A DNA stretch of 10,587 nt from an uncultured beta proteobacterium (GTDB lineage: Bacteria; Pseudomonadota; Gammaproteobacteria; Burkholderiales; Burkholderiaceae_C), in the NCBI GenBank assembly GCA_903944555.1, contig CAJASG010000189.1:1-10587 (forward strand), written 5' to 3'. Under the pieces are notes generated by a model. It made no database searches. It was not told the DNA's origin and was given only the letters and a program-made list of their open reading frames with translations. Shown piece by piece: positions 204 through 7,842 of this stretch (its first letter is position 1; each line of letters opens with the position of its first letter). Made by a program: the position numbers and the translations under genes.

Positions 204-232
204 ACAGCGAAATATCCCTTGTCAGAAAAGAA

Positions 233-265
233 AAACCCCACTAGTAAAAAAATGTAGCGGGGTTT
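233..265 (-). terminator. Rho-independent terminator for the TAXI/two-component cassette
   Basis: The arms AAACCCC (233-239) and GGGGTTT (259-265) pair perfectly. After one A/C mismatch the stem continues with CTA (241-243) against TAG (255-257), around a loop of 11 bases. On the minus strand the hairpin is followed by TTTTTCTTTTC, the T-tract expected of an intrinsic terminator. It lies about 85 bases past the response regulator stop and before the J-domain gene. On the plus strand no T-run follows, so it works leftward only. Confidence 0.8.
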
Positions 266-350
266 CAACTGCCTTGAAGGCACGGGGAGCATTTTACACC
301 AGTCAGCATCGTAGGACGGTTAGTCGTTCCTCGGGTTGCCCATTGCAACA

Positions 351-962
351 CTAAAGCTTGTTTTCACGCAGGTAGCGGTCCAGTTCTATGGGTGTGGATT
401 GATCCAGCTTGGCGTACACCTTTGCGCGGTGCGTCTCCACAGTGCGCACTTCACAGTGAATATCCCTCGCTATCTCTTTGTTCGACTTTCCATTGCGTAG
501 CAGGTGCGCTACCTGCTGTTCCCGTGGTGTCAAATTGCACCAACGGTTGTGGGCTTCACGTTGCATTGGTATCTTGGCCGCTACTGTTTGCGCTTGCTCC
601 AGTGCTTGTGCCACAGTGTTCAGCAACCGAGTTTCGTCACATGGTTTCTCCAACCATCCGAAGGCGCCATTTTTGGTGGCTTCAACCGCGATCGATATAT
701 CTCCGTGTCCGGACAAAAAAAGCACGACCAAAGGGCTTGCGCGCTGCCGAATCGCTTCAAACACCTGCAAGCCGCTGATGCCGTCCATGCGCAGGTCGAG
801 AATGACACAACCACCCCGCATGATGTCAGCCTTGGCGAGGAAGGATTCACCCGAATCAAACAACTGCACTTGGTAGCCGCGTGAGGCCAGCAAGTAAGTT
901 AAGGATTTGCGAACGCCTTCGTCGTCATCCACTACATAGAGAATTAGATTTTTGGTATTCAT
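351..962 (-). CDS. FixJ/DctR-like response regulator (REC plus LuxR-type HTH)
   Basis: This is a 203-aa two-domain transcription factor of the FixJ/NarL class. From the chosen start, the receiver domain covers about 1-115: acidic pocket DDD at 12-14, phospho-acceptor Asp56 in VILDLRM, conserved Ser84 (FLSGHGD) and Lys106 (LEKP). A LuxR-type helix-turn-helix follows at about 144-186 (LTPREQQVAHLL, then NKEIARDI and VRTVETHR). All phosphorylation residues are present. The ATG at 962 overlaps the kinase stop as ATGA, a common sign of translational coupling, so I prefer it. An ATG at 971 would add three residues (MHG), and neither has a clear Shine-Dalgarno. Its partner is almost certainly the kinase encoded just upstream. 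The pairing of a FixJ-type regulator with a DctB/DctS-like sensor recalls DctS/DctR of Rhodobacter, which controls C4-dicarboxylate TRAP uptake. The actual target genes are not visible in the window. Confidence 0.9.
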   Translation of the reverse strand: MNTKNLILYVVDDDEGVRKSLTYLLASRGYQVQLFDSGESFLAKADIMRGGCVILDLRMDGISGLQVFEAIRQRASPLVVLFLSGHGDISIAVEATKNGAFGWLEKPCDETRLLNTVAQALEQAQTVAAKIPMQREAHNRWCNLTPREQQVAHLLRNGKSNKEIARDIHCEVRTVETHRAKVYAKLDQSTPIELDRYLRENKL

Positions 963-3109
963 GCCATGCATTTCAGTTTCAAGGTGAATAGTGCACCGTT
1001 GCCGCTTCTGTTTTTAAACTCAAGCGTTCCCCCATGGCTTTCCACAATCGTGTGGCAAATGTTTAAACCCAACCCCAGTCCATCGGGTTTTGTGGTGAAA
1101 AATGGAGTGAAAATTTGATCAAAAATGTCAGGCGTGATGCCGCTGCCATTGTCTGCGATTTGAATGATCACCTCGTCATTCACATGTTCAGCGACTATAT
1201 TGATTTCACGCTCACCAGCGGGTGTGTTTTGCATGGCTTGCAGGCTATTGAGCATCAGATTGATCAACACCTGTTCCAGCAACACTCGGTCCACCACTAC
1301 TGCTGGGATCGACTTGGGACAATGGCTGACAATTCTGGCCTGACGCTGGCGTATTTCCGGCTTTAAAAGAGCCTTGGCGTTGGCAATCATGTTTGCAACT
1401 GAGTTCGCCTCGAGCCCTTGGGTACGCTGGCGCACAAAACCCCTTATTCGTCGAACGGTCTCGGCGGCCCGTTGCGCCTGCGCTACGATTTCATCCAGAC
1501 TATTCATCAACATGGCCTGCTTTCCCTGCTCGGCAAATGCTTTCGCTGCACTGGCAAAGTTGCTCAAGGCCATGAGCGGTTGATTGAGCTCATGCGCTAC
1601 GGTGGATGCCATCTCGCCCAAACTAGCCAAGCGCTGGGCATGCTGCAACTGCTCGTCGTGTTGGCGCTGGCGTGCATCGTGGTTTTTTTGTTCGCTAATG
1701 TCCACCACTGAGCTCATCCAACCACTGTGCTCTCCAGATCCGTTAATCAGGGGGGCCGTGTAGATCATGGTGTAGACATCATGACCATCGCGGTGACGTA
1801 TGCGCGATTCAAACCCGGTCAGTGCGGCCTGGCCGCTCATGGCTGCCTCGTTATCTCGCCAATGCTGCTCCATGTCGTCAGGGTGCCAATAGGGGTAGGG
1901 CGGAAGGCGCCCCATCAATTCATCATTGCGGTAACCCGTCATCTCGCACAAGGCTGGATTCACGTAAATAATGTGCCCCTCCAAGTCTCGGGCGCGCATG
2001 CCAATCAACAAGGAATCTTCCATGGCTTTGCGAAAAGCACTGGCCTCCCCTAGTTCCCGTGTTCGATCGCGCACCCGGACCTCAAGCTCGCGGCGCAAAT
2101 TGCGTTGCTCCGTAAAACGTCGTTCACGTTGGCGCCAATAGAGACTGCCCAGCAGCAGCACACCTGTGAGAAGCGTGGCCAGTGCTATTGCCGTATACCG
2201 AGCTTTGTTGATGGGGAGCCAGTCAGACAGCACCACCAGGGTCCAGCCAAACTCTGGCAGGGTTTCCTCGCGGGCCAGGAACTTTTTTGAAGCGCCGTCA
2301 ATGGCTGCAACCAATTGATAGCTGGGGTCTCCGTCCGTGTACCGGGCGGTCCACGGCACTGGTGGGTAATTGGATTGCAGGCCATACTGCTGCTGAGAGG
2401 CGATTACGTCCAAATCCGTCTGACTGAGAGCCCGGGTGCTGGTGTAAATCCAGGATGACACGGTGCTCAAAAAAATAATTCCGCGCGCGTCCGACATATA
2501 AACCGGTGCACCTACATTGCTCCACGCTTGCGCTATGTCGCGCAAGCTCAATTTGATGGCGACCACGCCAATAATGCGGTCCTCATGGCGCACCGGTGTG
2601 GCGATGAATAGTCCGGGAATCTTTGTCGAGGTCCCTATTGCATAGAAAAATCCGCTGCGCCCTTGCATTGCATCTCTGAAGTACGGGCGAAATGAATAGT
2701 TGTCACCCACAAAAGTTAAGTGCTCGTTCCAATTACTGGCTGCCAGTGTTACGCCCTTTGCGTCCATAAGGTACAGCGCATCCGAGCCAACACGGCGGTT
2801 GACCTCTTCCAGATAGTGGTTCACTCTCTGTGTCACCTTGCTGTCAGCCGGTGTGGCCAGTAAGGTCTGAACACTGGTTTGCTGTGCGGTGGTGAAGGGA
2901 ATGTGTTTGTACCGTGCTACTGCACCGCGCAAGCTCAAAGATTGCACTTCAAGCGTCCGGTGGTTTGCATCTTCCTGTGCAGTAAGCTCCCTGCGGGCCG
3001 CCCACTCACCGCATACACCTACGAACAGGACAGCGCCAACTGTCACCGAAGCCCACGCCAACCGGCGGCGCATTTGCGAGGATGGTTTGGTTGGTGACAG
3101 TGTGGGCAA
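959..3109 (-). CDS. DctB/DctS-like membrane sensor histidine kinase (Cache, PAS, HisKA, HATPase)
   Basis: The 716-aa protein has TM1 at about 15-35, a periplasmic sensor region at about 36-303, TM2 at about 305-325, a coiled-coil linker, a PAS domain at about 360-475, and the kinase core. The periplasmic part carries the DctB-type double-Cache signature NYSFRPYFRDAMQG (138-150) with YAIG and ATPV after it. The H-box is LGEMASTVAHELNQP with phospho-acceptor His506. The N-box has Asn617 and Asn621, and the ATP lid shows DNGSG (653-657), FTPFFTTK (667-674) and GLGLGL (677-682). The core is therefore complete. The start is a TTG at 3109 with TAGGA about 8 bases upstream; the next in-frame ATG (codon 13) has no Shine-Dalgarno and would shorten the cytoplasmic N-terminus. 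The TAXI gene ends 34 bases upstream and the regulator gene overlaps its stop. Ligand unknown; the family usually senses carboxylates, directly or through a binding protein. Confidence 0.92.
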   Translation of the reverse strand: MPTLSPTKPSSQMRRRLAWASVTVGAVLFVGVCGEWAARRELTAQEDANHRTLEVQSLSLRGAVARYKHIPFTTAQQTSVQTLLATPADSKVTQRVNHYLEEVNRRVGSDALYLMDAKGVTLAASNWNEHLTFVGDNYSFRPYFRDAMQGRSGFFYAIGTSTKIPGLFIATPVRHEDRIIGVVAIKLSLRDIAQAWSNVGAPVYMSDARGIIFLSTVSSWIYTSTRALSQTDLDVIASQQQYGLQSNYPPVPWTARYTDGDPSYQLVAAIDGASKKFLAREETLPEFGWTLVVLSDWLPINKARYTAIALATLLTGVLLLGSLYWRQRERRFTEQRNLRRELEVRVRDRTRELGEASAFRKAMEDSLLIGMRARDLEGHIIYVNPALCEMTGYRNDELMGRLPPYPYWHPDDMEQHWRDNEAAMSGQAALTGFESRIRHRDGHDVYTMIYTAPLINGSGEHSGWMSSVVDISEQKNHDARQRQHDEQLQHAQRLASLGEMASTVAHELNQPLMALSNFASAAKAFAEQGKQAMLMNSLDEIVAQAQRAAETVRRIRGFVRQRTQGLEANSVANMIANAKALLKPEIRQRQARIVSHCPKSIPAVVVDRVLLEQVLINLMLNSLQAMQNTPAGEREINIVAEHVNDEVIIQIADNGSGITPDIFDQIFTPFFTTKPDGLGLGLNICHTIVESHGGTLEFKNRSGNGALFTLKLKCMA

Positions 3110-3143
3110 CTGTGGAGTCCTATCCGTTTGTTGTGAGTACGCC

Positions 3144-4121
3144 TTAGCGTGTCGCTGTTCTGACTGTGGCCTTGGTCACGTCGGATTTACCATACCGGGT
3201 AATGCCAAGGGTATCACCAACATTGCGCACTTCCTTCCACGCCGCATGGTATTGGCCCTCTTGCAACTCATCCATGTGGCTTGCAATGCAGTTTTGCAAT
3301 GCTGCAACTTGTTTGCCTTTTTCGCCCGTGGGTTTGAATGGTCGGGTGACCAGTAAATTCGGCGCTGACAGAAAGCGGTAGTTGTAGGCTCCAAGGTTGG
3401 TGTAATTGCGCTTGGTAGTGGTCAGCGGTGTCTGGGGTGATAGATCGTACTCGGCAAGCATCAAGCCACTGGTGCTTGCGTGGCGGCTAACGGAGGGGTA
3501 GGGCCAGCCGCCCGTCGTAAAAACGGCTTGCACCTGGTTTGATTGCAGCATCTTTATGGCCTCGTCATCGGTATTTGCCAGAACAAAGCCCATGCCATAC
3601 CCAAGCTGTCTCTCCAGCGCCTGGCCCAGCGCCTGGGCCGAGCCAACGGTGGCGACTTTAGCCCCTTTTAGATCGGAAAATTTTCGGTACACCAGTTGCT
3701 CACCCGACATTGGATTCCACTTATTGGCCCCGACCACGGAGCCGTCGGTCTTAGTAATGACGTGCAGCAGGTTTGCATGCATTGGCATGACTGCCTGGAG
3801 CTCCTGGATGTTTTGATCACCCTCCTTGGCCATTTGCTGCAACACGTCCACCTGAACAAACCCAATGTCAGCCTCACTGGCCGACAGCAGCATCAGGTTT
3901 TGTAGCCCCCCTGTGCTGGGTACCTGGCACACTGACGCCGCCTTACCGCACACCTTCTGAATGTCTCTGGCGAGCTGGGTGTAAACCCCGCTGGCCGGAC
4001 CTGTTGCAATGCGTAAGCTGCATTCTTCCTTTGCCTCCTGTGCGTGCACCGTCATGGTGGCGCCGCTAGTCAGTACGCCAATGGCGAGGCCAGCAATGAC
4101 AGAAATTTTTGTTGTTTTCAT
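3144..4121 (-). CDS. TAXI-family TRAP solute-binding protein, periplasmic, without transporter subunits
   Basis: This 325-aa protein begins with a classical signal peptide: KTTK, a hydrophobic core to about residue 24, and a probable signal peptidase I site after VHA at 25-27. The mature protein opens with RIATGPASGVYTQLARDI, the typical start of TAXI (TRAP-associated extracytoplasmic) binding proteins, followed by STGGLQNLMLL and EADIGFVQVD, also typical of the fold. Characterised TAXI proteins bind glutamate, glutamine or 2-oxoglutarate-type ligands, but the ligand cannot be read from this sequence. The ribosome binding site AAGGAG lies 8 bases before ATG. TAXI genes normally neighbour a fused DctQM-type membrane gene; none is encoded here. 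The gene sits instead between a 43-aa membrane protein and a sensor kinase. I infer a role in signal detection, perhaps presenting ligand to the kinase Cache domain, although it could also serve a TRAP membrane subunit encoded elsewhere. Confidence 0.9.
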   Translation of the reverse strand: MKTTKISVIAGLAIGVLTSGATMTVHAQEAKEECSLRIATGPASGVYTQLARDIQKVCGKAASVCQVPSTGGLQNLMLLSASEADIGFVQVDVLQQMAKEGDQNIQELQAVMPMHANLLHVITKTDGSVVGANKWNPMSGEQLVYRKFSDLKGAKVATVGSAQALGQALERQLGYGMGFVLANTDDEAIKMLQSNQVQAVFTTGGWPYPSVSRHASTSGLMLAEYDLSPQTPLTTTKRNYTNLGAYNYRFLSAPNLLVTRPFKPTGEKGKQVAALQNCIASHMDELQEGQYHAAWKEVRNVGDTLGITRYGKSDVTKATVRTATR

Positions 4122-4142
4122 TGGAATAACTCCTTGGGTTGG

Positions 4143-4274
4143 TTAGCGAATAATTTCAGGTGCTGCCCGAGTGGGCTCTGTGCTGCTGGAGCGATCTGCG
4201 CCTATCCAGCTCGCGAGAACAATGGCCACGAAAACAGCGAATGAGATCCAGCGTAATCCGGTCCAAAATTTCAT
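4143..4274 (-). CDS. Small single-helix membrane protein, 43 aa, function unknown
   Basis: This short frame encodes MKFWTGLRWISFAVFVAIVL at its start, giving one hydrophobic helix at about residues 8-25 after a short basic N-terminus. A polar 18-residue tail rich in Ser, Thr, Ala and Pro follows. The evidence that it is real is translational: GGAG lies 6-7 bases before ATG, and the ATG overlaps the stop of the preceding gene as ATGA. It ends 21 bases before the TAXI start codon, and that gap holds the TAXI ribosome binding site. There is no cysteine, so it is not a lipoprotein. The basic N-terminus predicts the tail in the periplasm, where it could touch the TAXI protein or the kinase sensor domain. 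That is inference from position. An uncleaved signal anchor is more likely than a secreted peptide, since no clear AxA site follows the helix. I recognise no family. Confidence 0.72.
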   Translation of the reverse strand: MKFWTGLRWISFAVFVAIVLASWIGADRSSSTEPTRAAPEIIR

Positions 4275-5062
4275 AAAAATCTCCTTTTCTGTGTAACGGT
4301 AGGCAAGGTAAGTGCGTCGAGTTGCTCCAACTCCTTGTGTTGCATAAAGCGTTGTGCAGGTGAATCCATGGAGCGCATTTCAACGTCGAGTTCTGCAAAT
4401 ACGGTGTTGAACCTGCTTTGCACCGAGCGCAATGCCTCGTCAGTGAGCAAGTCCTGCATTAGGTCCTGTAGCTCATTGGGATTCAAGGCAGCCATCACAC
4501 GTTGCCCTGCCTTGGCAAATTCCCACTCGAACATCTTTTGTTTGACTTGGTGACGGAACTCTTCCAAGGCGGCGTGGGCTTGATCGAGTCGATCGAGATT
4601 GCAGTCGTAGAAGTGCGTCATGCGTTGTAGCGCCTGTTGCTGGCGATCAAGCACATGGCCAGGATCTATGTGGCTTCGCTCGGCGACCATCTGCTTCATG
4701 GATTGGATTTGACCGCCGATAGTTACCAGTGCTTGGCGAAAGGACTTCAGCCTTTCCTCACGGCGCAAGCAGTCGTTTTGAAGTTGCTCAATCGGGTTGG
4801 TCCGAGCCTCTGACTTACGCAGGTGAAGAATGCGGTTTTCCAACCTTTGCATGGCCAATGGAATGCCGTGAAAAAGAACAGTTCCTATGATCGCCATTGC
4901 CCCTAGCGCCAACAAGCCAAGGCCAGAAGACACCGCCGCCCAAATGAGCGGGGCAGAAAGCGCCAATAGGGCTGTTGTGGCTAGCAGCGCCGTAATACGC
5001 AGGATCCAGACGCGTTGCGCGGCGTCTGTTGGCGGTGCGGAAGTCGATGTGAGCGCTGGCAT
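4271..5062 (-). CDS. Two-helix membrane protein with long helical cytoplasmic domain, unknown family
   Basis: The 263-aa product has a short polar N-terminus, two closely spaced hydrophobic helices at about 20-42 and 46-68, then about 190 residues rich in Glu, Gln, Arg, Lys and Leu. This part looks helical and probably coiled coil (about 72-125 and 140-190), broken by HIDPGH at 131-136 and NPNEL at 194-198. The two-helix hairpin with an Arg-rich exit (MQRLENRILHLRK) predicts both ends in the cytoplasm. I do not recognise the family. The charged helical body with a C-terminal segment TDEALRSVQSRFNTVFAELD vaguely recalls PspA/IM30-type proteins, but I see no decisive motif. It is the first gene of the cassette, and its stop overlaps the start of the 43-aa gene. 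The start at 5062 has GAAGG 6 bases upstream, inside a hairpin annotated separately. It may scaffold or signal alongside the kinase; this is unproven. Confidence 0.8.
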   Translation of the reverse strand: MPALTSTSAPPTDAAQRVWILRITALLATTALLALSAPLIWAAVSSGLGLLALGAMAIIGTVLFHGIPLAMQRLENRILHLRKSEARTNPIEQLQNDCLRREERLKSFRQALVTIGGQIQSMKQMVAERSHIDPGHVLDRQQQALQRMTHFYDCNLDRLDQAHAALEEFRHQVKQKMFEWEFAKAGQRVMAALNPNELQDLMQDLLTDEALRSVQSRFNTVFAELDVEMRSMDSPAQRFMQHKELEQLDALTLPTVTQKRRFL

Positions 5063-5068
5063 GGTTGG

Positions 5069-5093
5069 CCTTCATTGTTTGCAGTAATGAAGG
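5069..5093 (-). promoter_or_regulatory. Hairpin covering the ribosome binding site of the first cassette gene
   Basis: On the minus strand CCTTCATT (5093-5086) and AATGAAGG (5076-5069) are perfect 8-bp complements around a 9-base loop. The 3' arm contains GAAGG, the only Shine-Dalgarno-like sequence for the ATG at 5062, at a normal spacing of 6 bases. In RNA the site would be paired, which would lower translation of the gene unless the stem is opened. Because the following gene is coupled to this one by an ATGA overlap, the effect could reach further into the cassette. The pairing is seen directly; the regulatory effect is inferred. Confidence 0.5.
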
Positions 5094-5143: not shown

Positions 5144-5163
5144 CGTGCGTAGGATTACGCACG
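5144..5163. promoter_or_regulatory. Perfect inverted repeat, candidate operator of the cassette's FixJ-type regulator
   Basis: CGTGCGTA (5144-5151) and TACGCACG (5156-5163) are exact reverse complements separated by GGAT, so the arms are 8 bp and the centre-to-centre distance is 12 bp. It lies in the intergenic region before the cassette, about 80 bases upstream of the first start codon. Dyads of this size suit dimeric LuxR/FixJ-type regulators such as the one encoded at the end of the cassette, so autoregulation is plausible. No T-run follows on either strand, so it is not an intrinsic terminator. It could alternatively form an RNA stem with a four-base loop in the leader of the cassette transcript. 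Confidence 0.5.
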
Positions 5164-5244: not shown

Positions 5245-7842
5245 TTAGGAGCTCAGGGCATCCAGCAGCTCCGTCTCGATCTCAATTTGCGCCCGGTTGT
5301 GTTGCAACTGTGGCCCGTGGATGAGGAAGGTGTCTTCCACCCGCTCACCCAGCGTGGCAACTTTTGCCAGTTGCACGGCAATGCCGTGGTGGGCCAGCAC
5401 CCGGGCCACCGAATACAGCAAGCCAATGCGGTCGCTGGCCGAAATATTGAGCAACCACAGCTGGGCTTTCTCGTCCGGGCGCAAGGTGACGCGCGGTGCA
5501 ATCGGGAAACTCTTAACCCGGCGCGAAACCCGGCCACGGCTGGGCGCAGGCAGTGGCCCGGCTTTGGCAATCGCCTGGCTGAGTCCGTTTTCCAGCAGGC
5601 TGGTGGTCTCGCGGTAGTGGTCGTCGATATCCGTGGATGTGACCACCTGAAAGGTGTCCAGGGCATACCCTTTTCGGCTGGTGTGGACCCGTGCATCCAA
5701 AATGCTGAAGCCACCCTGGTCGAAATAGCCGCAAATCCGGGCAAACAGATCCGGCTGGTCCTGGGTGTACACCAATACTTGCAAGCCTTCGCCAACTGGC
5801 GATCGGCGTGCACGCACGATCGGCTGGGTGGTGGCAACGTGGCGGGACAGCTGTTTGGTGTGCCAGGCAATGTCGGCGGCGTCGTGGCGCATGAAGTAGC
5901 TCACGTCCAGCGTGTCCCACAGCGGCTTGTGGGCTTCAAACGGCATGGCGTGCAAGGCAATCATGATCAGCGCTTCGCGCTTGCGCTGCTCGACTTCGGC
6001 ATCGGGGTCGGGTGCTCTGCCGCCCAATGCCCGGGTGGTGAGGCGGTACAGGTCTTCCAGCAGCTTGCCTTTCCAGGCGTTCCACACCTTGGGTGATGTG
6101 CCGCGGATGTCGGCCACCGTCAACAGGTACAGCGCCGTGAGCTGGCGCTCGGTGCCGACGCGCTTGGCAAAATCGGCGATCACGGTGGGGTCGCTCAGGT
6201 CCGACTTTTGGGCAATGCGACTCATGGTCAGGTGTTCGTGCACCACAAACTCAATCAGCTTGGCGTCGTCGGCCGCAATGGCGTGCTGCTTGCAAAAACG
6301 CCGCACCTCCACGCTGCCCAGCTCGGAATGGTCGCCCCCCCGGCCCTTGGCAATGTCGTGGAACAGGGCCGCAATGTACAGCAGCCAGGGCTTGTCCCAA
6401 CCAGACGCCAGTTGCGAGCAAAACTGGTACTCGTGGGCGTGTTCGACGATAAAGAAGCGCCGCATGTTACGCAGCACCATCAGGATGTGCTGGTCCACGG
6501 TGTAGACATGGAACAGGTCATGCTGCATCTGCCCGACGATCTTGCGAAACACCCACAGATAGCGCCCCAGCACCGAGGTCTGGTTCATCAGGCGCATGGC
6601 ATGGGTGATGCCTTCAGGTTGCATCAAAATTTCGCGAAACGTCGCCCGGTTGACCGGATCGCTGCGGTAGCGGGCGTCCATGACGCCCCGGGCGTTGTAC
6701 AGCGCACGCAAGGTGCGGGCCGACAAACCCTTGACCCCAACCGTGGTCTGGTAGACCAGAAAGGTCTCCAAAATCGCATGCGGCTCGCGTTGGTACAGGT
6801 CGTCGCTGACCACATCGATCATGCCCGCCTTGTCGTTGAAGCGGTCATTGATGCGCTGCGGCGCATGGGTGGAGGGGTTGAGCCGCTCCTCAATGTTCAT
6901 CAACAAAATCTGGTTGAGCTGGGTGACCGCCTTGGCCGCCCAGTAGTAGCGCTTCATCAGCAACTCGCTGGCGCGAACAAAGGAGCGCGACTTTGCATCG
7001 GCTTGCGTGGATGTGTAGCCAAACGATTCGGCGACCGCATTTTGCATGTCAAAGATCAAACGGTCTTCTCGGCGTTTGGCAATCAGGTGCAAGCGCGCCC
7101 GAATCAAAAACAGCAGCGACTCATTGCGCTGGATTTGCTTGACCTCAAACGGCGTTGCCAGCCCACTGGTGGCTAACGCGGCCCAATCATCACCATACCC
7201 TGCGGCCTTGGCGACCCACAAGATCACCTGCAAGTCGCGCAGGCCTCCGGGGGACTCCTTGCAGTTGGGTTCCAGGGAGTAGGGCGTGTCTTCAAACTTG
7301 GTGTGGCGCTGGCGCATTTCCAGCGTTTTTGCGACAAAGAACGCACGGGCGTCCATGGCAGCAAAAAAGTCGTGCTGAAACTGCGCAACCAGTGGGGCAC
7401 TGCCCGTTATCAAGCGGCACTCCAGCATGGCGGTTTGCACCGTCACGTCTTTCTCGGCCTCGGCCAGGCATTCACCCAGCGTGCGCACGCTCGAACCAAT
7501 CTCCAGCCCTGTATCCCAGCAGCTACCGATGAAGGCCTCGATACGGGTCTTCAGTTCTATATCGTGCTCAGCGGAAAAACTGTTTGGCAGAAGCACCAGC
7601 ACATCCACATCCGAGTGCGGGAAAAGCTCGCCCCGGCCAAATCCACCGACGGCCAACAGGGCAAAGGGCTCCTTCAGACCGGCAAGCGTCCACAAGTGGA
7701 CAAGTAGCCCATCTGCCAGCTTTGCGAGTTGGTGCAACACCTTGCGAACCTCGCGTGGTGTGGAAGACGGTGCGGCAATTGTCTGCAGGAGTTGCGCTTT
7801 TTGCGCCCGGTACTCTGCGCGCAGCGCCTGCATATCGTTCAT
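5245..7842 (-). CDS. glnD: Bifunctional [protein-PII] uridylyltransferase/uridylyl-removing enzyme GlnD
   Basis: The enzyme senses glutamine and uridylylates PII proteins (GlnB/GlnK) when nitrogen is short, and removes UMP when glutamine is abundant. Its 865 residues match the family's usual length. The nucleotidyltransferase motif [15 protein letters not shown] lies at 66-80, with the catalytic aspartates of the DVD at 78 and 80. A central GlnD-specific region follows (SPGGLRDLQ at 197-205). The HD phosphohydrolase motif is at His495-Asp496 ([17 protein letters not shown]). Two C-terminal ACT domains bind glutamine, at about 687-760 and 795-865. All the key motifs are intact. The ATG at 7842 is 4 bases after the map stop, and a weak AGG inside the end of map could serve as ribosome binding site, so the two genes are very likely cotranscribed. 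No obvious terminator follows the stop at 5245. Confidence 0.97.

Follow-up and report, generated by a model that had tools for sequence, protein, structure and literature searches.

A 10,587-nt stretch of DNA from an uncultured beta proteobacterium (assembly GCA_903944555.1, contig CAJASG010000189.1; subsequently named the window) contains a conserved unit of three minus-strand genes, around which the neighbouring histidine kinase is exchanged. The unit bears a 263-aa membrane protein (M263, positions 4271–5062), a 43-aa protein with one transmembrane (TM) segment (S43, 4143–4274) and a 325-aa periplasmic binding protein of the TAXI type (3144–4121). As far as searched, this module is real, conserved and undescribed. 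Upstream sequences give good support to control of the module by its neighbouring two-component system. The module most likely represents the target and output of the regulator and perhaps a co-sensor, a role that was not among the proposals of an initial annotation, which had joined five genes of the window into one sensor.

Linkage of the M263, S and TAXI genes

A contig scan with the TAXI protein alone found no relative, and an alignment of M263 was used instead. It yielded 49 loci, from 37 assemblies by our own count of record names (loci are numbered L, genomes G and contigs C). The set of 50 loci with an intact M263 gene consists of these 49 minus two with an M263 fragment (L056, which has a TAXI gene, and L058, which has none), plus the window, L002 and L009; L008 was left out, being apparently the same contig as L039. 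M263, an S gene and a TAXI gene occur together in all 50 loci: the TAXI gene adjoins M263 in each (preceding it in L010, L012 and L031), and the S counterpart is a small single-TM open reading frame (ORF) directly after M263. The M263 and S genes overlap in the ATGA manner in 39/50 loci. In L034 and L042 the contig ends within the TAXI gene, and in L027 this gene is divided between two frames; the small ORF of L030 is short (30 aa), and those of L016 and L019 were entered by hand. L055 and L057 are contigs of metagenome-assembled genomes labelled as candidate phyla, of which L055 (57% G+C) may be misbinned. The recurring linkage of TAXI to two membrane proteins, one of the initial claims, is therefore seen in every intact locus. 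The five genes are not the unit: the window-type kinase is present in only 12/50 loci, and what is conserved is three genes.

Matches were found, the genome of the window (subsequently the own genome) included, in 3/150 genomes of the family, 3/300 of the order and 3/398 of the phylum, these samples overlapping; the module is therefore rare and patchy. G125, the sole genome of the same genus in the family sample, gave no match. Two candidate carriers were rejected: the match in G263 is a flagellin (L061), and in G680 a 744-aa frame matched over short stretches only. The M263 relative of G428, sought in 250 genomes of the order, retrieved itself and a 31% fragment in G180. At L058 (9947–11738) an M263 remnant lies beside a window-type kinase and regulator without TAXI, the module having apparently decayed. 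A SulP-type carrier gene stands directly upstream of the module in L010, L018, L022 and L031.

Exchange of the neighbouring kinase

The expectation that two-component genes accompany the module is borne out above background: a kinase gene lies within six genes in 40/50 loci as compared with 5/205 among genes seven or more away, a count that misses the kinases of L009 (gene-caller error) and L002 (on another contig). The own genome holds 91 HATPase_c matches in 4.07 Mb. Sorted by kinase partner, the loci fall into type A, that of the window (12), type B, linked to DctP (13), type C, with sCache_2 (11), and other or none (14). Eight type A loci are complete in window order, the regulator of L017 lies beyond the contig end and in three the TAXI gene has moved upstream. 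The type A loci all come from metagenome-assembled genomes; type B is represented in a cultivable species, Ramlibacter rhizophilus. In type B the module is accompanied by a DctP gene, with a PAS kinase divergent to them and a receiver-GerE regulator; in type C a CheY-like protein and a receiver-GerE regulator accompany a kinase that has sCache_2 and HisKA_3. These domains were read from representatives (L035 for B, L021 and L023 for C) and the remaining loci were placed by tblastn; L022 was counted as type C though its kinase is seven genes off. The sensor regions differ: that of the window is dCache, both type C representatives have sCache_2, and the type B representative matches nothing in Pfam. 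The other loci include four from Massilia with a kinase convergent to TAXI, seven without a kinase within six genes, and L009. Here a second TAXI-domain protein (6311–7651), membrane-anchored with N-terminal hydrophobic segments, is encoded beside a kinase and a regulator and divergent to M263-S-TAXI.

The four kinase labels require 10 changes on the M263 tree, the minimum possible being 3; this figure is approximate, since only 18 of 47 inner branches are well supported. L026 (type A) pairs with L021 (type C) with support of 99/97, and L038 (type C) stands among the type B rows, paired with L032 (100/99). The kinase is the exchanged part, and the three genes are fixed.

Dyads and probable control of the module

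A perfect dyad, TGCGTA-ATCC-TACGCA (5146–5161, strand-neutral), lies in the 182-nt gap between glnD and M263, 99 nt before the M263 start, and is a candidate operator. The pattern TGYGTA-N4-TACRCA is found in 12/12 type A loci between −99 and −145, with 10 or more of 12 matches, and at most 1/60 shuffles was equally good. Elsewhere (12 type B, 10 type C and 12 other loci scanned, leaving out L002; L024; and L009 and L032, respectively) two type C loci reach 10 of 12. Type B has a pattern of its own: GTGTGG-N4-CCACAC scores 11 or 12 in 11/12 loci (L036 is without it) and in no other type, two type A loci reaching 10 of 12. The upstream regions of type C appear similar around −100 in an alignment. 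Since the patterns were written after the repeats had been seen, the majority of the loci do not count as independent tests. In L014, L017 and L019 no such repeat had been listed beforehand, and these score 11, 10 and 10 of 12 with the type A pattern. Conserved dyads that are specific for the type make the neighbouring regulator the most likely controller of the module.

This operon holds the only perfect type A site of the 4.07-Mb genome. When one mismatch is tolerated, the pattern has 11 sites as compared with 17 for the reversed control pattern, so that a wider regulon cannot be claimed: the ten further sites are no commoner than the control, and one of them lies inside M263 itself. Seven of the nine others inspected are inside ORFs, and the remaining two lie on C174 and C397. 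The C397 site (L089, ∼1500) lies 118 nt ahead of a secreted-looking 163-aa ORF that has a kinase and a further receiver-like ORF as neighbours; a similar site may serve a second FixJ-like system. The C174 site lies before an SPFH gene beside a paralogous module. SPFH (Band 7) genes were observed near the module in nine loci (L002, L016, L019, L026, L033, L035, L040, L041 and L045), type B loci included, and 7/9 have a type A-like site (at least 10 of 12) upstream; the background is 32/763 genes, with module and SPFH genes counted.

The membrane pair M263 and S43

M263 is predicted to have two N-terminal TM segments (by hydropathy) followed by a helical bundle, and S43 a single TM segment (likewise by hydropathy). 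Neither protein reaches a Pfam or NCBIfam cut-off. The AlphaFold model of M263 (mean predicted local distance difference test score, pLDDT, 80.3) is all-helical with two hydrophobic N-terminal helices, and no solved fold matched it at E 0.001 in Foldseek. An assignment to PspA, Vipp1 or BAR proteins was rejected, as neither a Foldseek match at 0.001 nor such a Pfam family was found. Among 7998 candidates scored, 417 M263 relatives were found at E ≤ 0.001.

The S proteins carry an FW motif near the N-terminus in 47/50 loci (the exceptions being L009, L055 and L057), and their C-terminal ends are alike within groups: GL in 12/13 type B loci, in types A and C mostly AP with I or F, ending in R, H or a similar residue, and FN in nine of the Massilia-Rhodocyclaceae-like kind. 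Such a conserved end on a variable linker has the appearance of a tethered docking peptide. In G428 (L076, 8442–10498) the protein encoded after an M263 relative unites a TM-like segment at the N-terminus, a family-3 binding domain (SBP_bac_3) and LysM. This fused chain lends support to S43 as an anchor. A further fused form is encoded on C658 of the own genome (L081, 3133–4473): a 447-codon TAXI-domain protein, whose gene is divergent to an open frame of 1,722 codons that matches HATPase_c. Read by eye, its single chain runs from a TM segment through the TAXI domain and a further hydrophobic segment to a tail that looks helical. Fusions of this kind suggest that the three proteins, where separate, act together as one receptor.

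The TAXI protein and its missing TRAP partner

The window TAXI protein has a signal peptide-like N-terminus and scores above the cut-off for NMT1_3 in Pfam. With the TRAP_TAXI profile it reaches 9.1e-17 and 60.9 bits, below the cut-off of 84.35 bits, and it is therefore a divergent member. The best structural matches of its model (pLDDT 87.5) are solved TAXI proteins (1us4, 4ddd, 9ibp, 8u79 and 9ibo). In VcGluP, the residues most important for glutamate include Tyr45 and Gln93, according to an excerpt of PMC11574862. Matched on short motifs, Tyr47 and Gln90 are their equivalents in the window, and among 28 aligned module TAXI proteins the Tyr column is kept in 26 and the Gln column in 25. VcGluP Ser75 and Glu125, matched in the same way, are replaced by Leu73 and Asn117. 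The ligand is likely to be a small carboxylate or amino acid, judging from these residues, with glutamate as a candidate only.

TAXI-TRAP proteins are always found with a fused DctQM subunit according to a review (PMC5812351, as excerpted). The initial annotation had called the window TAXI an orphan, and the TRAP membrane gene is indeed missing from the window and, over the cut-off, from the genome: the eight ORFs scanned with Pfam contain neither a TRAP membrane gene nor a carrier (gltS was sought in the window only), and TRAP_fused, the subunit type paired with TAXI, has no match over the cut-off in the own genome (91% complete, 4.07 Mb). DctM, of the DctP kind, occurs in seven places elsewhere in that genome. 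Among 27 other module genomes of unknown completeness, which cover 28 of the 49 alignment-found loci, TRAP_fused exceeds the cut-off in two and has no match over it in 25. A TRAP gene consistently adjoining the module in relatives, which would have spoken against an orphan, was not seen. As a TRAP partner beside the module we found only weak or partial DctM matches near three loci, a 63-residue match in L008/L039 ∼4–5 kb off and a 26% match in L056.

A TAXI search of the own genome gave three places: the window, a 44% paralogue on C174 and a weak match on C658 (E 5.4e-5). The C174 paralogue comes after the end of a DctP gene, and on C273 a type B kinase and regulator are divergent to a DctP start. 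We regard the two contigs as pieces of a single locus, separated by a missing stretch of DctP; in that case each of the three TAXI proteins encoded in the genome adjoins a kinase. On C299 (L080) a kinase and a regulator are divergent to DctP with DctM further on, an ordinary layout. Type B loci resemble it, the module standing in place of DctQM.

The kinase and regulator of the window

Downstream of TAXI follow a 716-aa histidine kinase with a TTG start (959–3109, minus strand) and a 206-aa FixJ-like response regulator (351–971, minus strand). The kinase contains dCache_1, PAS, HisKA and HATPase_c domains in Pfam. The initial assignment of a DctB-type Cache domain proved correct: the closest Protein Data Bank match is DctB (3e4o, 1.9e-35, residues 55–295 aligned), and the window kinase has a DctB-type dCache sensor domain. 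The succinate ligands of DctB (Tyr149, Arg152, Thr171 and Lys197) appear to be kept in the kinase by our own count on that alignment. DctB-like dCache domains bind carboxylic acids as a general point (PMC8694187, in part). The regulator, initially described as FixJ/DctR-like, indeed has Response_reg and GerE domains. FixJ is its best NCBIfam match (1.2e-53) with 181.7 bits, below the cut-off of 255 bits, so that the protein is FixJ-like in architecture only.

Potential function of the module

We tentatively favour, at a little under an even chance, a membrane receptor or capture module of M263, S43 and TAXI that is controlled by the neighbouring two-component system. The DctB-like kinase would sense a carboxylate via its own periplasmic Cache domain, and the FixJ-like regulator would bind the dyad at 5146–5161 and control the whole operon, its own genes included. 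The exported TAXI protein would bind a small carboxylate or amino acid and be anchored at the membrane by S43, probably through the conserved C-terminal end, and M263 would read the state of the TAXI-S complex and pass it on to its cytosolic helical bundle. Most likely this would serve to tune the kinase, in the way that BctC, a binding protein of the TTT family, tunes BctE. The dyad function, membrane topology, anchoring, ligand class and kinase feedback are what we infer; signalling by the module is plausible. Three points weigh against this reading. As the partner kinases differ in their sensor regions, a conserved docking surface is not evident. In seven loci no kinase is encoded within six genes, so that the module may be able to function without a kinase. 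A module that only senses should leave other target genes to be found, and the one-mismatch sites stay below the control.

It is possible, and less probable, that M263-S is a general membrane adaptor that makes a binding protein, either TAXI or, in G428, a family-3 protein, a transporter-free receptor with an exchangeable kinase; at least two kinase types would then drive the module through their own operators. If true, this would add a new class of transmembrane receptor, apart from binding-protein-dependent transporters and one-piece sensor kinases. Rather unlikely, to our mind, is an uptake or capture device switched on by the two-component system, with the kinase as sole sensor and the carboxylate crossing via S43 and M263 or via a carrier encoded elsewhere. 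The dyads, which make the module a likely target of the regulator, would suit it, as would type B, where DctP and a divergent kinase-regulator pair are arranged as on C299 and the module is placed where DctQM would stand. A SulP-type carrier occurs upstream in 4/50 loci, and TAXI is able to work with the non-TRAP carrier GltS (PMC12344293, excerpt). However, three predicted TM helices in M263 and S43 together are few for a secondary carrier, and no carrier gene recurs beside the module in the annotated loci.

The initial annotation had TAXI present a ligand to the periplasmic domain of the window kinase, with the two membrane proteins as scaffold. The genes do stand together in the 12 type A loci, and kinases dependent on binding proteins exist (PMC5812351, in excerpt), but the kinase type is exchanged while the three genes stay, and its Cache domain aligns with DctB over residues 55–295. 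With a full DctB-like Cache in the kinase, TAXI need not present the kinase's ligand. The presenter role is not upheld by the differing sensor regions of the partners, the seven loci without a kinase and this Cache domain, and we regard the five-gene relay as improbable. Similarly doubtful, and not ranked above it, is a membrane-domain or envelope-maintenance module acting with the SPFH protein, in which TAXI would report an envelope signal: M263 is a long helical protein and most SPFH genes near modules share the type A-like site, but such sites also occur in the background, M263 matches neither PspA in Pfam nor any fold at E 0.001, and most loci show no SPFH gene in view, partly owing to contig ends. 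That an orphan TAXI gene lies by chance in an unrelated operon would fit the rarity and patchiness of the module. It is extremely unlikely, and for the three-gene unit it is refuted by the 50/50 linkage, the conserved overlap and the conserved dyads.

Relation to known systems

BctC-BctDE of Bordetella pertussis is the best precedent for a binding protein tied to an adjoining two-component system. According to an excerpt of PMC5812351, BctC is needed for induction of its operon and contacts BctE in two-hybrid assays. There, as in the window, a periplasmic binding protein is encoded beside a two-component system that controls its operon, such control being only a candidate here. However, in that excerpt BctC belongs to the TTT family and has the transporter BctBA, whereas the window combines a TAXI protein with two other membrane proteins and lacks a transporter subunit. 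For TAXI without TRAP, the best precedent is TAXI-GltS of B. pertussis (PMC12344293, in part), which likewise has no TRAP membrane subunit. Its partner is a carrier of the 12-TM-class, GltS, in contrast to small membrane proteins and a kinase, and the term two-component is absent from that paper. With TAXI-TRAP (VcGluP, PMC11574862, as excerpted) the window shares the TAXI fold and the equivalents of Tyr45 and Gln93, but it has no fused DctQM, and the Ser75 and Glu125 positions are replaced. Parts of PMC4077058 and PMC8694187 describe DctB-type C4-dicarboxylate kinases, to which the window dCache is similar over its whole length; the differences are a FixJ-like GerE regulator and a candidate target that is the TAXI module and not a dicarboxylate carrier.

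Binding-protein-linked two-component systems already exist; the membrane pair M263-S43 is new. A search of titles and abstract openings in the open full-text literature, with most subscription papers and all preprints outside it, found no paper on the module, in line with the initial annotation, which knew of no described system with these two membrane partners. The partners of orphan binding proteins are mostly unknown, and the strict linkage observed here names two unnamed protein families. With this system it could be tested directly whether signalling by a binding protein requires a permease; the type-specific dyads offer ready reporters, and the exchange of the kinase around a fixed core offers a natural experiment on two-component rewiring.

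Organization of the window operon

The five genes between 351 and 5062 are all on the minus strand and constitute a single operon with M263 as first gene, a dyad-bearing control region and a terminator. The packing given in the initial annotation, with gaps of 21 nt (S43-TAXI) and 34 nt (TAXI-kinase), a terminator and a control region, was confirmed by the ORF list, folding and the dyad. As to the two ATGA overlaps claimed there, the one between M263 and S43 stands; kinase and regulator overlap by 13 nt counted from the first ATG, and in the ATGA manner only if Met4 (962) is the start, as is possible. A terminator hairpin past the regulator gene (232–266, minus strand) gave a z of −4.23 with 0/200 shuffles equally stable in the folding test, and is absent from the listing of the consensus scan. 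On one side the operon is bordered by glnD and map, and its other neighbour is a DnaJ-domain ORF. Within the window no Rfam family reached the threshold and no tRNA was found. A second inverted repeat, CCTTCATTACTGCAAACAATGAAGG (5069–5093), immediately precedes the M263 start and may fold over the ribosome-binding site; a similar repeat also precedes M263 in L022.

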